Part shown: positions 2 through 45,419 of the stretch, piece after piece
Numbering within the stretch: the first letter of the stretch is position 1
Layout of the letters: each line of letters begins with the position of its first letter
From: Roseofilum halophilum BLCC-M91
GTDB lineage: Bacteria > Cyanobacteriota > Cyanobacteriia > Cyanobacteriales > Desertifilaceae
NCBI RefSeq assembly: GCF_030068445.1
Contig: NZ_JAQPOK010000141.1
Span: 1-45,419, forward strand
Direction of reading: 5' to 3'
DNA length: 45,419 bases
The notes under the pieces: model-generated
The model's database searches: none
Seen by the model: the letters and a program-made list of their open reading frames with translations, nothing else
Told to the model about the DNA's origin: nothing
Position numbers and translations under genes: made by a program

Positions 2-139
2 GATGTTATGAGGTACAGTAATCGAAATGTTCCTTGAGAGTGTTGTCCCATGAAAAGCCTGAAAAATGGGGATTATAGCGTGAAAAATGGTTTTCCCATT
101 ACCAATTACCCATTACCCATTACCGCGCGAAGCGCTGTA
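2..139. repeat. Left copy of 138-bp terminal inverted repeat
   Basis: Positions 2-139 are the reverse complement of 45281-45419. The outer 59 bases (2-60) match without a mismatch; the inner part, reading inwards, shows about six substitutions. The inner part contains CCATTACC-type heptamer repeats and the small palindrome GCGCGAAGCGC. The repeat overlaps the 3' end of the minus-strand DUF3226 gene and supplies its last ten codons and stop. Confidence 0.95.
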
Positions 140-708
140 ACTGCATCATGTAACTGTCTTCCCGGTGGATTTTGCCAAGCCAACCAAGTATAGATGTTCG
201 CTTTATCTACATGATGAGGATCTTTAAAGGTTGCCCCTTTTTGCTTGGCTTGTTGCGTTACTTCTTGTGCATATTCCCAAAGGGACTGGCTTTTATCTGG
301 AACTAGATATTTTAGGAACGTCTCTAACATTCCTTGGGTTTGGTTATCTGGCATAATCCAAACTCCGAATCGAATACCCATAGGAGTTACATGAATTAGT
401 CCAGATGGGGGTAATTGTTCAGGAATATTGGCAATACTGGGTAAGGAAAAATTTCTAATGCTCTGCCAACGTTCTTCTAAATCCAGATCTGCGTCTATGA
501 TTAATCCTAGGGCAGTTAATCCAGATTCTTTTAGCTGAGTTGAAATAAAATCTTGGTTAATGTTTTGATAGCCATCATGGGCTGTAATGTGTACAACGGG
601 TTGATGTTTAATGGGTTCCCAAATTACTCCATTGGCTTCCATCAACCAGGGGATAACTCTTTTATCTTCTTGTCCTTCAACAATTAGTTTTTTGGAATGA
701 CGTGCCAT
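106..708 (-). CDS. DUF3226 TOPRIM-like protein, partner of the adjacent ATPase
   Basis: 200 residues. The N-terminal strand with VEGQED (E11) and the IIDADLD segment (D72, D74) has the E...DxD layout of TOPRIM folds, as in OLD nucleases, topoisomerases and the DUF4435/DUF3226 families. A GVWIMPDN segment near residues 115-122 is also typical of DUF3226. The gene starts two bases after the stop of the upstream ATPase gene, so the two are almost certainly co-transcribed and translationally coupled. Split ATPase plus TOPRIM pairs resemble OLD-like and PARIS-like anti-phage systems, but a defence role is inferred here. The last ten residues (TALRAVMGNG) are encoded by the dispersed repeat at the window end, so the native C-terminus was probably replaced or extended by repeat insertion. 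Family call fairly sure; function unproven. Confidence 0.8.
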   Translation of the reverse strand: MARHSKKLIVEGQEDKRVIPWLMEANGVIWEPIKHQPVVHITAHDGYQNINQDFISTQLKESGLTALGLIIDADLDLEERWQSIRNFSLPSIANIPEQLPPSGLIHVTPMGIRFGVWIMPDNQTQGMLETFLKYLVPDKSQSLWEYAQEVTQQAKQKGATFKDPHHVDKANIYTWLAWQNPPGRQLHDAVTALRAVMGNG

Positions 709-710
709 GG

Positions 711-1862
711 TTAACGCACCTCAATGTCTTGAGTTGCAGCGATCGCCATTTCTTTTTCGGTAAAGACGATACTTTGAGGTTTATCCCGTTCGATGCGGTG
801 AATTCTGATGCCCTCTTCTGGGGTATCTACTTCACTAGCAATGGTGGCTAAACTGCGCCAGCAGTCACTGCTATGGGTGGTGGCAAACACTTGTACATTT
901 AAGCGTTTAGCGGTTTCCCAGACTAATTTCCACATATCCGCCATGGCTGTGTAATGCAAACCGGTGTCGATTTCATCAATGAATAAAAATCCATCTCTGG
1001 TATTGACAATGGCTAAGGCGAGTCCTAACATGCGCCAGATGCCATCGCCTAGACTGCCAATGGGAACCGGGCGATCGCGATCGGAAAGACGCACGAGGAA
1101 ACCCTCCCGCGATTGCGAAAACCGAGTGAACTGAGATGATACAGCAATCCGCTTAAATTTAGGCTCAATAGTTTGAAGGGCTTGGTGTACGGGTTGCTCT
1201 TCTGATGTTAAAACAATATTATTAAACAACTCAATCATTTTTTCTGAAGTGAGTGAAGACGATTCAATGAAATTTGTTCGACCTTCTGTTTTTTTGTGGG
1301 ATTTACTATACCTGGTAAATTTCACGATTAAATTATCAGGAATTGTTTCATCAACAGATAAGGGAAAACGAAAGTTATCAAAATATTTTTCTTTTTCCCA
1401 GTCTTTTCTAATTTCTCCTGTTCTCCAGGTTATCACCAGACTCAACTCATCGAAAATATCGGCATCAGGGTTGATGTACTCAAACGTTCGATCCCTGAAT
1501 TTTGTTGAATATTTAAATCGATCGGGATCTAAAATTATTGTGGCAATGACCGTTTCACAAATATCATTATTGAGTCCTGATATTTTAAATTCAATATTTG
1601 GATCGATAAGATGACTATAAAATAAGTGACGAATGTCAAAATCAAGGGACTGATTGGGTTGTTCAAAAAAATATTCACCTCGTCTTATCATCGAATCTCG
1701 TATCGGCTCAAGATTATTTTTTGAACACAAGAGTTGGATGGCTTCTAAGATAGAGGTTTTGCCACAATTATTAGCTCCGACGAGCAGATTTAAGCGACCT
1801 AGATCTGGCAACTCTAAGGACTGCAAGCCGCGAAAATTCTCAATTTTGACGCTTCTGAGCAT
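711..1862 (-). CDS. AAA family ATPase (OLD/RecF-like, AAA_15/AAA_21 type)
   Basis: 383 residues. The N-terminus VKIENFRGL is the typical opening of SMC/RecF/OLD-like ATPases. Walker A is GANNCGKTS at residues 29-37. A signature-like GSLGDGIWRMLGLALAI lies near 267-285, followed by Walker B (FLFIDEIDTGLH) and an H-switch (FATTHSSDC). The middle is a variable AT-richer insertion. There is no fused nuclease domain; the TOPRIM-like partner is encoded immediately downstream with a 2-base gap. Such ATPases use ATP-dependent DNA binding or clamping to control an associated nuclease. In OLD-type defence pairs the ATPase is the sensor or scaffold, which is the likely role here by analogy. The 104-bp gap to the divergent kinase gene at 1967 would hold its promoter. 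Confidence 0.85.
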   Translation of the reverse strand: MLRSVKIENFRGLQSLELPDLGRLNLLVGANNCGKTSILEAIQLLCSKNNLEPIRDSMIRRGEYFFEQPNQSLDFDIRHLFYSHLIDPNIEFKISGLNNDICETVIATIILDPDRFKYSTKFRDRTFEYINPDADIFDELSLVITWRTGEIRKDWEKEKYFDNFRFPLSVDETIPDNLIVKFTRYSKSHKKTEGRTNFIESSSLTSEKMIELFNNIVLTSEEQPVHQALQTIEPKFKRIAVSSQFTRFSQSREGFLVRLSDRDRPVPIGSLGDGIWRMLGLALAIVNTRDGFLFIDEIDTGLHYTAMADMWKLVWETAKRLNVQVFATTHSSDCWRSLATIASEVDTPEEGIRIHRIERDKPQSIVFTEKEMAIAATQDIEVR

Positions 1863-1966: not shown

Positions 1967-3298
1967 ATGAGTACCCAACCGAAAATAATTGTTCTTGACG
2001 ACGATCCCACCGGATCGCAAACGGTGCATAGTTGTTTGTTGCTGATGCAGTGGGATGTGGAAACCCTGCGGTTTGGCTTAACGGATGATTCGCCGATTGT
2101 GTTTATTTTGACGAATACTAGGGCACTGACTCCGGAGGAAGCTAAGGCGGTGACGGTGGAGGTGTGCCAAAATCTGAAACAGGCGATCGCCGCAGAAAAC
2201 ATCGAAAATTTCCTAGTCGTCAGTCGCTCAGACTCCACCCTCCGGGGCCATTATCCCATTGAAACCGATGCGATCGCCTCCGAACTCGGCCCCTTTGATG
2301 CCCATTTCCTCATTCCCGCCTTCTTTGAAGGGGGACGGATCACCCGCGATAGCATCCATTATCTGATCGTTGACGGCACGCCTACCCCCGTCCATGAAAC
2401 CGAATTCGCCAAAGATTCCGTATTTGGCTACTCCCACTCCTATCTTCCCGATTATGTGGCTCAAAAAACCCAAGGTCAAATTGTCCGCGATCGCGTCCAA
2501 CGGTTCCTACTCGAAGAAATTCGCGAAGGCAGCTTTGACCGCCTGATGTCCCTGAGCGATAATCAATGTGGAGTCGTAGACGCAGAACACCAAGTTGACC
2601 TAGACTGGTTTGCCGGTGACCTATTGCGAGCCAGTGCCCATGGTAAACGCTTCCTGCTCCGTAGCGCTGCCAGCATTCTCACCTCCCTAGCCCAACTGCC
2701 TCAGCAACCCGTAATGGCTGAACACATGAATCAATATGTGCGCGAAGGCAAACCCGGCGTAATTTTGGTCGGTTCCCATGTGAAAAAAACCACCGAACAA
2801 CTCGCCCAACTGCTGGAAGAGCCAGAAATTAGCGGCATAGAAGTGGATGTCAGCCAGCTACTCAAAAATGACCCGAAGACCCAAGAAAACCTGATACAGA
2901 GCATTTTACGCCAAGTTCAGGACATCCACAGCCAAGACCGAACCCCCGTTATCTACACCTCCCGCCAAGAACTCACCTTTCCCACCATTCAAGCGCGACT
3001 CGACTTTGGTAAACAGGTGTCCCACGTGCTAATGAGTGTGGTAGAGAACCTCCCCGCAGATATGGGCTATTTAATTAGCAAAGGCGGAATTACCTCCAAC
3101 GATGTCCTCAGTCGCGGGTTAAAGTTGCGATCGGCTCGTCTGCTTGGGCAAATTCTCCCCGGATGCTCCCTCGTGCGTACCCCCATCGATCATCCCCGGT
3201 TCCCCAACTTACCCGTGGTTCTCTTTCCCGGAAATGTGGGCGATCGCCACGGGTTAGCCACCGTCTATCAACGATTAAACCAGCCATCTGCTCACTGA
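1967..3298 (+). CDS. Four-carbon acid sugar kinase family protein (DUF1537)
   Basis: 443 residues, about the full length of the DUF1537/OtnK-DenK family. The N-terminus IIVLDDDPTGSQTVHSC is the family's hallmark, with the DDDPTG acidic loop binding substrate and magnesium. SRSDSTLRGHYP near residue 88 is the second conserved motif. The C-terminal half carries the nucleotide-binding motifs LISKGGITSNDV and VLFPGNVGD. Characterised members phosphorylate four-carbon sugar acids such as erythronate or threonate; the substrate here cannot be read from sequence. No aldolase, dehydrogenase or isomerase of the pathway is adjacent, so the enzyme may salvage or detoxify a minor metabolite. Divergent from the ATPase unit; followed by separately transcribed psbO. 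Confidence 0.85.
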   Translation: MSTQPKIIVLDDDPTGSQTVHSCLLLMQWDVETLRFGLTDDSPIVFILTNTRALTPEEAKAVTVEVCQNLKQAIAAENIENFLVVSRSDSTLRGHYPIETDAIASELGPFDAHFLIPAFFEGGRITRDSIHYLIVDGTPTPVHETEFAKDSVFGYSHSYLPDYVAQKTQGQIVRDRVQRFLLEEIREGSFDRLMSLSDNQCGVVDAEHQVDLDWFAGDLLRASAHGKRFLLRSAASILTSLAQLPQQPVMAEHMNQYVREGKPGVILVGSHVKKTTEQLAQLLEEPEISGIEVDVSQLLKNDPKTQENLIQSILRQVQDIHSQDRTPVIYTSRQELTFPTIQARLDFGKQVSHVLMSVVENLPADMGYLISKGGITSNDVLSRGLKLRSARLLGQILPGCSLVRTPIDHPRFPNLPVVLFPGNVGDRHGLATVYQRLNQPSAH

Positions 3299-3450
3299 AC
3301 GTCCTTAAGGGGATCTTAGCCGTACCATTTTATGAAATTATGGTTAAAAGAGTTTTGCCGATCCCCAACCCCAAGCCATCAGTGCTGAGTTCGGGAGCGG
3401 CAGGACTCCGTTGGAGGAAAACACACTTGGTCAACGCTAAAAACTCAACT

Positions 3451-4278
3451 ATGAAATACCGCGCTTTTATTGCTGTCATCCTAGCCTTGTGTTTGAGTCT
3501 AATTACAGCCTGTAGTGAAGGCCCAGCCGTAGGTAGCGACTACACCTACGATGATATTAAAAACACAGGTTTAGCAAACAACTGTCCTCAATTGGAAGAA
3601 ACCGCTAGAGGTTCCATTCCCCTAGATACGAGCAAAAGCTACGTCTTGACTGATTTATGCTTGCAGCCTAATGATTATTTTGTCAAAGAAGAAGCCACCA
3701 GCAAGCGTAAGCAAGCAGAATTTGTACCGGGTAAAGTGCTAACCCGTAAAACGTCCAGCCTTACGCAAGTCTATGGAGACCTGACCTTTGGCCCAGAAAA
3801 CACTCTGACTTTCTCAGAAAAAGGCGGAATTGATTTCCAAATTATTACCGTACTCCTACCCGGAGGCGAAGAAGTACCGTTCTTCTTCACCATCAAAAAT
3901 CTAGTCGCTCAAACTGAACCGGGTGCAGATAGTGTCAATACTTCAACTGATTTTGAAGGGAAATTCCGCGTTCCCTCCTATCGGGGAGCTACGTTCCTCG
4001 ATCCCAAAGGCAGAGGGGTAGCCACAGGTTATGATAATGCCGTTGCCTTACCTTCTAGTGCAGATGCTGAAGATTTCACCTTGGCCAATGTGAAACGGGT
4101 TCAAGTCGGTGAAGGAGAAATTTCTTTACAAGTCACGAAAGTTGACCCCAGCACAGGAGAATTTGGTGGAATTTTTGTGAGTGTCCAACCCTCTGATACT
4201 GACTTAGGCGCGAAAGAGGCTGTAGAGGTGAAAATCAAAGGACTCTTCTATGGTCGTGTAGAAGAAGACTTGAGCTAG
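3451..4278 (+). CDS. psbO: PsbO, photosystem II manganese-stabilising protein
   Basis: 275 residues from the ATG at 3451, the usual length. This start gives a proper export signal; extending the frame upstream to 3163 would overlap the preceding gene. Family motifs are TYDDIKNTGLANNCP, GIDFQIITVLLPGGEEVPFF, FRVPSYRGATFLDPKGRG and QPSDTDLGAKE. Two cysteines (NNCPQ and TDLCLQP) form the known disulfide of the beta-barrel. PsbO binds the lumenal face of PSII and stabilises the Mn4CaO5 cluster. The signal ends in an ITAC-S lipobox at residues 18-22 rather than an AxA site, so the mature protein may be lipid-anchored at C21. A terminator follows at 4305. No clear Shine-Dalgarno precedes the ATG; the 152-bp leader is otherwise non-coding. 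Confidence 0.97.
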   Translation: MKYRAFIAVILALCLSLITACSEGPAVGSDYTYDDIKNTGLANNCPQLEETARGSIPLDTSKSYVLTDLCLQPNDYFVKEEATSKRKQAEFVPGKVLTRKTSSLTQVYGDLTFGPENTLTFSEKGGIDFQIITVLLPGGEEVPFFFTIKNLVAQTEPGADSVNTSTDFEGKFRVPSYRGATFLDPKGRGVATGYDNAVALPSSADAEDFTLANVKRVQVGEGEISLQVTKVDPSTGEFGGIFVSVQPSDTDLGAKEAVEVKIKGLFYGRVEEDLS

Positions 4279-45192: not shown

Positions 45193-45280
45193 GCTCTCCC
45201 CTAGCTCTTATTGCTTTTTGCGTATCGCTTTGTACATCGCTGTTACATCCAATCAAGAAAATAGATGCACAAATTAGAAG

Positions 45281-45419
45281 ATACAGCGCTTCGCGCGGTA
45301 ATGGGTAATGGGTAATGGGTAATGGGAAAACCATTTTTTACGCTAGAGTGCCCATTCTTCAGGCTTTTCATGGGACAACACTCTCAAGGAACATTTCGAT
45401 TACTGTACCTCATAACATC
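45281..45419. repeat. Right copy of 138-bp terminal inverted repeat
   Basis: Reverse complement of 2-139. It contains AGCGCTTCGCGC and four GGTAATG heptamers, then the unique 59-bp outer block. It lies about 90 bases upstream of the small HNH-paired ORF. Confidence 0.95.

Follow-up and report, generated by a model that had tools for sequence, protein, structure and literature searches.

The ATPase–DUF3226 pair at the contig edge

We analysed contig NZ_JAQPOK010000141.1 of the cyanobacterium Roseofilum halophilum BLCC-M91 over positions 1 to 45,419 (the window), at the left edge of which two adjoining minus-strand genes encode an OLD/RecF-type ABC ATPase and a TOPRIM-like DUF3226 protein. A reading of the DNA letters alone (the original prediction) had proposed this pair as a candidate defence unit. 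Its coordinates proved right, as did the gap of two bases between the ATPase stop and the DUF3226 start, which leaves two open reading frames (ORFs) separated by a stop codon. Pfam assigned PF11536 (DUF3226; E = 1.2e-57) and AAA_15 (E = 1e-30) to the two proteins, both far above chance, and the Walker motifs that had been called intact, GANNCGKT and GFLFIDE, are both present in the ATPase together with an H-loop, ATTHS. The PADLOC model M38A matched the ATPase at positions 1–383 of 383 (2.7e-88), and M38B matched the DUF3226 protein at profile positions 13–197 of 220 (5.4e-63), with the C-terminal end absent. By these profile matches the pair is the already catalogued PADLOC candidate PDC-M38, which has the same two genes. 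PDCs are putative systems named through a guilt-by-embedding approach, according to part of PMC12988326; PDC-M38 has candidate status only in PADLOC, and the window copy of it is truncated. Neither DUF3226 nor PDC-M38 was found mentioned in the literature searched. With the pair catalogued and the window copy broken, the part worth following is another: recombination in relatives swaps the ATPase's central lobe like a cassette and leaves the catalytic ends near-constant. We did not find this exchange in the literature searched, and it is a new observation.

The ATPase central lobe is an exchangeable cassette

We collected 54 loci by similarity and compared ten Pseudanabaena-like loci, nine of which have metH as the first or second gene upstream. 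The MetH proteins are 85–96% identical and the ATPases 60–72% in 34 of 36 pairs, a low value because residues 41–200 and 241–260 (mean identity 30–51%) diverge between conserved ends (residues 1–40 and 261–383, 82–100%). Median identity at four-fold sites was 51% for metH, 64% for the N-terminal end of the ATPase (13–18 sites per pair only), 40% for the centre and 56% for the C-terminal end. Loci L076 and L080 have a common centre (four-fold identity 85% versus 53% for metH) and different effectors (61% of residues), and L072 and L077 have a common effector (95%) and a different centre (32%). Since a centre can be common without the effector and an effector without the centre, the parts have been shuffled.

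The exchange is also visible as breakpoints in DNA. Locus L027 is 90–100% identical to L028 and L029 upstream of the pair (63–66% in the first window of the alignment) and as far as ATPase nucleotide ~130; identity then falls to 26–78% up to nucleotide ~830, with 51% or less in 10 of 12 windows, and returns to 88–100% up to the end of the DUF3226 gene. L028 and L029 are 83–100% identical to each other throughout the pair. The reverse pattern separates L016 from L007, which are 81–100% identical up to nucleotide ~1026 and 50–88% in the ATPase end and DUF3226. Among 83 unique ATPases of at least 330 residues, 74 pairs had ends at least 0.9 identical, and the identity of their centres had a median of 0.46, a minimum of 0.23 and a maximum of 1.00. 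Centres below 0.5 were found in 30 of 35 such pairs from Pseudanabaena, 2 of 3 from the genus of genome G237 and 12 of 36 others (median 0.66).

Two families served as controls. For RecF, an ATPase of the same type, we compared 19 genomes (171 pairs) with region limits set by position: among 70 genome pairs in which the M38A ends were at least 0.8 identical, the centre was below 0.5 in 45 for M38A and in none for RecF. Genomes G095, G235, G237 and G253 have RecF proteins 0.98–1.00 identical in every part and M38A centres 0.23–0.24 identical in 4 of 6 pairs and 0.92 in the other 2. For PARIS-type ATPases we searched 30 DUF4435 loci from the same order by motif and obtained 20 P-loop ORFs, which were assigned by locus and not by adjacency to DUF4435 and were divided by region bounds taken from one sequence; in this small sample, 11 pairs had ends at least 0.9 identical, with a median centre identity of 0.94 and a minimum of 0.73.

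The genus of G237 shows the cassettes and effectors in combination. Centre A occurs in six genomes and centre B in five, with an identity of 0.26–0.29 between and 0.80–0.99 within the two kinds. Two ATPase C-terminal ends occur with their effectors, giving four classes: A-C2 in four genomes, B-C2 in three, A-C1 in two and B-C1 in two. It is not credible that one and the same 220-residue sequence arose by change several times over, and the four classes of centre and effector therefore point to recombination. The 300 bases upstream of the pair are 94–98% identical to G095 in 7 of the 10 other genomes; G503, G504 and G480 have a different upstream stretch in common, of which only the last ~50 bases are like the rest. 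Both A-C1 genomes belong to this second upstream group, and three of the four classes occur among the eight genomes that share one upstream flank. The 300 bases downstream match G095 in 1 of 10 genomes. The effector allele follows the last residues of the ATPase in 11 of 11 genomes (DUF3226 identity at least 0.89 within and at most 0.83 between alleles), a linkage which, seen in sequence, would fit contact between the two proteins or simple closeness in DNA. The effector frame is cut at 139–140 residues in 2 of the 11.

Could the central variability instead come from a weakly constrained lobe that evolves fast or decays in the usual way, with no exchange of a recognition module? Residues ~101–200 of the lobe are the least conserved across the whole family and the copies in the genus of the window are decaying, both as this explanation would have it, but it does not account for sharp DNA breakpoints between flanks that are 90–100% identical, for the drop at four-fold sites within the lobe, for lobes common to pairs without the effector and the reverse, or for the absence of the pattern from the RecF and PARIS-type controls. 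As a sole cause, fast evolution is largely refuted, and we consider it improbable.

Predicted folds and comparison with known systems

A model was made for the DUF3226 protein of L054, an intact relative 63–64% identical to the window protein (predicted local distance difference test (pLDDT) 90.2, predicted template modelling score (pTM) 0.86). Its top structural match was 2p62 (PH0156; VIA Z 13.1), followed by the C-terminal region of BpOLD (Z 11.1 over 164 residues, root-mean-square deviation 4.7), XccOLD (9.2), retron Eco2 (9.0), TsOLD (8.7) and AriB (7.2), and the first five Foldseek matches were all OLD C-terminal regions. A sequence search found no close solved relative of the DUF3226 protein, and its best profile matches were weak (1t6t, E 0.59; AriB, E 1.3). 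The model thus predicts an OLD-like TOPRIM fold; a TOPRIM-like protein had been anticipated from the DNA. The ATPase model (pLDDT 86.0) was closest to PtuA (Z 18.9), Rad50/SMC (about 18), GajA (17.9) and AriA (17.3).

Residues were counted in 81 unique DUF3226 sequences, the window included, of 190–245 residues and a score of at least 180. The acidic residues singled out by the original prediction, E11 and D72-x-D74, are present in the window protein and conserved in 79, 81 and 78 of the 81, respectively; D15 is conserved in 68, and N122, E129 and K169 in all 81. In BpOLD, E400, D455 and D457 hold metal A, E404, T506 and E508 hold metal B, and K562 is a further active-site residue, according to part of PMC6755086. 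Judged by order and spacing only, D15, E129 and K169 may match the metal B ligands and the lysine of BpOLD, with E11 and D15 four residues apart as are E400 and E404; DUF3226 has no equivalent of the BpOLD threonine (T506).

Several known systems resemble the pair. Like PARIS (AriA/AriB, class 4 OLD), it has an adjoining ABC ATPase and a separate TOPRIM gene, with structural matches to both PARIS proteins. The partner family differs, as had been predicted: the protein here is DUF3226 (~215 residues) with no DUF4435 match, whereas the PARIS partner is DUF4435 (~300 residues), and the ATPase centre is exchanged in the DUF3226 system but not in the 20 ATPases from DUF4435 loci. The PARIS detection rule in part of PMC9122126 is AAA_15/AAA_21 plus DUF4435; we rejected membership in PARIS, as Pfam gave DUF3226 only (E ≤ 0.1) and PADLOC M38B models only (E ≤ 1). 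With OLD classes 1–3 (P2 Old/TsOLD, GajA, retron Eco8) the pair has in common an OLD-type ATPase, the conserved E and DxD, a conserved and possibly equivalent Lys, and a TOPRIM model that is closest, after 2p62, to the BpOLD and XccOLD C-terminal regions. Those proteins are single-chain, whereas here ATPase and TOPRIM are two proteins, and no helicase or reverse transcriptase gene adjoins the pair on its one readable side; downstream, at the position of GajB in Gabija, the window ends after 105 bases. Weak DUF3226 matches within frames of ~660 residues in L233, L234 and L227 are possibly fused ATPase–TOPRIM (OLD-like) relatives. The ATPase also matched the PADLOC AbiLi model (5.5e-51), more weakly than M38A, but the DUF3226 protein had no AbiLii match at E ≤ 1, unlike the AbiL system (AbiLi/AbiLii).

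Two further systems are alike in the variable segment. In HsdS of type I restriction, a variable recognition segment lies between conserved parts usable as recombination arms. The likeness is one of outline (variable segment, conserved flanks), and HsdS is a DNA-specificity subunit, whereas the lobe exchanged here belongs to an ABC ATPase. Multicellular bacteria have putative antigen sensors that retroelements diversify (part of PMC10907252); these are putative conflict-system sensors that vary in their target part. There the source is error-prone reverse transcription, and here it is whole-lobe exchange between near-identical flanks.

Distribution and mobility

Among 292 genomes from 115 genera of the phylum, 59 genomes in 34 genera have DUF3226 of any type. 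In 50 of the 54 loci the ATPase gene lies directly before the DUF3226 gene on the same strand, with a spacing of −1 to +7 nucleotides in 42 of these 50; among the four exceptions, L107 is a fragment, L106 is a fragment with a trace of the ATPase, and L093 starts 150 bases before DUF3226. Seven plasmid records matched (Acinetobacter 4, Klebsiella 1, Plesiomonas 1, Citrobacter 1), and an ATPase gene was directly before DUF3226 in all four inspected. A tree of 46 rows had poor resolution, with stars on 15 of its 43 inner branches; L057, labelled Chloroflexi, and L061, labelled Planctomycetaceae, fall inside its cyanobacterial part and may be binning errors.

In seven loci (L072, L076, L077, L084, L085, L086 and L088) the ATPase frame starts 17 bases past the stop of metH (methionine synthase; identity checked with Pfam in L076 and L085, and in L077 through a 92-residue piece), which suggests that metH and the ATPase gene are co-transcribed there. 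The fixed position after metH that the Pseudanabaena-like loci show would suit a housekeeping or DNA-repair nuclease pair of a RecF-like ATPase and a TOPRIM protein with no role in immunity, as would the RecF, Rad50 and SMC heads among the close sequence or structural matches and an archaeal OLD protein with a cell-cycle role (part of PMC12796447). We nevertheless judge a housekeeping pair very unlikely, given that DUF3226 of any type is absent from 233 of the 292 genomes, that the site compared across the genus of the window lacks the pair or holds a broken or partial one, and that the pair is carried on plasmids and exchanges its lobe. Of the contrast drawn originally between a scattered distribution and linkage to housekeeping genes, the scatter held in the phylum and in the genus (three of six genomes), and the Pseudanabaena-like loci show the linkage.

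A candidate immune sensor

The PARIS ATPase forms a hexamer that sequesters its TOPRIM partner. Binding of a phage protein to the ATPase sets this partner, an RNase, free to cut tRNA (part of PMC12409363; PMC11455837). We propose that the present pair follows the same logic. By this analogy, the ABC ATPase would restrain its partner TOPRIM nuclease, the central lobe would bind a foreign, presumably viral, trigger, and trigger binding would free or activate the nuclease, which may then cut nucleic acid, tRNA or DNA, and stop the cell. We lean towards the pair as a candidate antiphage module of the abortive-infection type, in which an ATPase sensor with a recombining recognition lobe restrains a TOPRIM nuclease. 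An immune sensor under diversifying selection would be expected to vary mainly in one lobe by exchange, to keep its catalytic ends constant, to be carried on plasmids and to be lost in some relatives, and the pair shows all of these. A more specific proposal sees in the ATPase an immune receptor that recombines: the lobe (codons ~44–262) would be a recognition cassette, swapped whole between close relatives through homologous recombination at the ATP-binding ends, and the extreme C-terminus would travel with the TOPRIM effector as a second exchangeable unit. For this proposal we hold the balance to be even.

Several observations weigh against an antiphage role. Exchange is also conceivable for a lobe that evolves fast or binds DNA and does not sense viruses. 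The ATPase pairs compared are not independent, and outside the Pseudanabaena and G237 groups the low centres are confined to the one third of pairs given above. L078, the fourth exception, carries a DUF3226 gene of full length, and the 773 bases between it and the contig end hold no trace of an ATPase. Phage records gave no match, and among viral contigs no relative could be confirmed. Within the genus to which G237 belongs the pair is near-universal, in 11 of 12 genomes (G097 has another DUF3226 type only), and in 9 of the 54 loci, mostly Pseudanabaena, one of the first two genes upstream is metH. The best Foldseek E value listed for the DUF3226 model, 1.0e-03, does not pass 0.001. We scanned 109 of 191 nearest-neighbour proteins, picked by hand with the majority of metH copies and numerous short ORFs excluded and with no control set, and most were not defence genes. 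The commonest Pfam family among them was Uma2 (9 of 109), and among the PADLOC matches listed (25 of 108 families) were PDC-S03 (6), mad3 (2) and MTase_III, MTase_II, PD-T4-6 and dGTPase (1 each). The neighbourhoods are not clearly defence islands, and we claim enrichment in neither direction; the AAA–DUF3226 co-occurrence that was to be surveyed in such islands is thus borne out for the pairing (50 of 54 loci) and not clearly for the setting.

If the receptor proposal is true, bacteria would combine sensors and killers within a single locus, much as type I restriction loci do with specificity subunits. Trigger recognition by OLD-type ABC-ATPase sensors is understood in few cases, and a 220-residue lobe that is a natural cassette would mark the likely recognition part directly. 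It would also provide matched natural alleles differing mainly in the lobe, so that specificity becomes testable by swap. The DUF3226 system would then be set apart from PARIS and would be an ATPase–TOPRIM example among module-exchanging defences.

Damage to the window copy and to the site across the genus

A repeat cuts the window copy of the DUF3226 gene (Table 1). Its inner end, at window position 139, is inside the gene, and residues 191–200 are read from the repeat; the insertion removed the last ~21 residues of the TOPRIM protein, including a conserved C-terminal helix. In relatives this tail reads F..WF..L, with F in 73, W in 76 and L in 76 of the 77 sequences that have letters there, and it is an ordered helix (residues 201–214) in the L054 model. 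We rejected an intact, functional window copy, the Pfam DUF3226 match ending at 186 of 208 with the tail helix lost to the repeat. The window pair is an inactivated or weakened allele and, to judge by its sequence, probably non-functional. The defence candidate originally put forward is an already listed one, and this truncation had been missed.

Window bases 1–175 have at least 47 matches in the same genome, 40 of them long, self included, many at contig ends, a lower bound set by scoring 40 of 423 first-look candidates. Five interior copies carry CGCTGTA at one end (5 of 5) and TACAGCG at the other (4 of 5, C100 being shorter there). By its sequence we class the repeat as an element like a miniature inverted-repeat transposable element (MITE), because a length of ~151 bp leaves no room for a transposase. 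The same MITE-like repeat lies at window 45279–45419 (minus strand, 95%), and the window is therefore bounded by it on both sides. A position at an accessory edge next to repeats had been described for the pair; the repeats are real, and the edge is base 1 of the assembly contig rather than the boundary of an island. The missing DUF3226 end and left flank were not found in the genome's own 95%-complete assembly when searched with a relative's DNA.

Table 1. Features of the ATPase–DUF3226 pair in the window
Feature	Position	Strand	Evidence
OLD/RecF-type ABC ATPase (PADLOC PDC-M38A), putative sensor/regulator, 383 aa	711..1862	-	ORF, Pfam, PADLOC, model
DUF3226 effector, TOPRIM-like (PDC-M38B), 200 aa, mobile repeat in place of its 3' end	106..708	-	
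MITE-like repeat end, inserted in DUF3226 gene; also contig start	1..139	.	
ATPase central lobe (codons 44-262), exchangeable cassette in relatives	1077..1733	-	
Walker A GANNCGKT, ATPase residues 29-36	1755..1778	-	
Walker B GFLFIDE, ATPase residues 291-297	972..992	-	
TOPRIM glutamate E11	676..678	-	79/81 sequences
TOPRIM D72-x-D74	487..495	-	D72 81/81, D74 78/81
Invariant K169, possible BpOLD K562 equivalent (order and spacing only)	202..204	-	81/81

We compared the same site across the genus by anchoring on a neighbour gene found in all six genomes; the unit or a remnant of it is present in three and absent from three. G213, G295 and G294 had no tblastn trace of the pair in the site stretches compared. 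In G292 the pair is present and its DUF3226 gene is apparently split by another element, with the parts at two contig ends (the ends of L117 and L119), which share their outermost 28 bases in inverted orientation. G293 has only the first part of the ATPase, followed by the antisense of a neighbouring gene. All three occupied sites, the window's among them, are damaged, each differently. The window and G292 ATPases are 88% identical and have one centre in common, and at the site G292 and G293 are mostly 93–100% identical up to nucleotide ~120–150 (codon 40–50), then 46–70% and soon lower. In place of the pair, G213 has a PIN-domain gene (VapC-like, by eye) and a small ORF (L114:4639–5363), and G295 (L115) resembles G213 there by DNA likeness; the neighbourhood of the kinase-like gene is therefore a turnover site. 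The window genome has a second ATPase plus DUF3226-like pair (L002/L120, G000 C36:80522–81888) with an open ATPase frame and a DUF3226 frame of only 111 residues.

Such loci raise the alternative of a selfish stability module (toxin–antitoxin or addiction), in which the TOPRIM toxin is neutralized by the ATPase, loss kills the cell and defence is secondary. Two loci in one genome with shortened effector genes and open ATPases are consistent with it, as are the PIN-domain gene and small ORF that occupy this site in G213 and G295 and the carriage of the pair on small plasmids, for example a 6.4 kb mobilizable Citrobacter plasmid. Addiction alone, however, does not predict central-lobe exchange between constant ends, and single-gene deletions of PARIS, though another system, are non-toxic according to part of PMC9122126; we regard addiction as unlikely and keep to the reading of the pair as a candidate antiphage module.

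Beside the pair, Pfam identified a gene with SBD_N and NBD_C domains, which we take to encode a four-carbon sugar-acid kinase, psbO and an MscS channel gene; these neighbours place the host among the cyanobacteria. The psbO ORF (window 3163–4278) overlaps its neighbour at its mechanical start; the true start is probably the ATG at 3451, ahead of a signal-peptide-like stretch.

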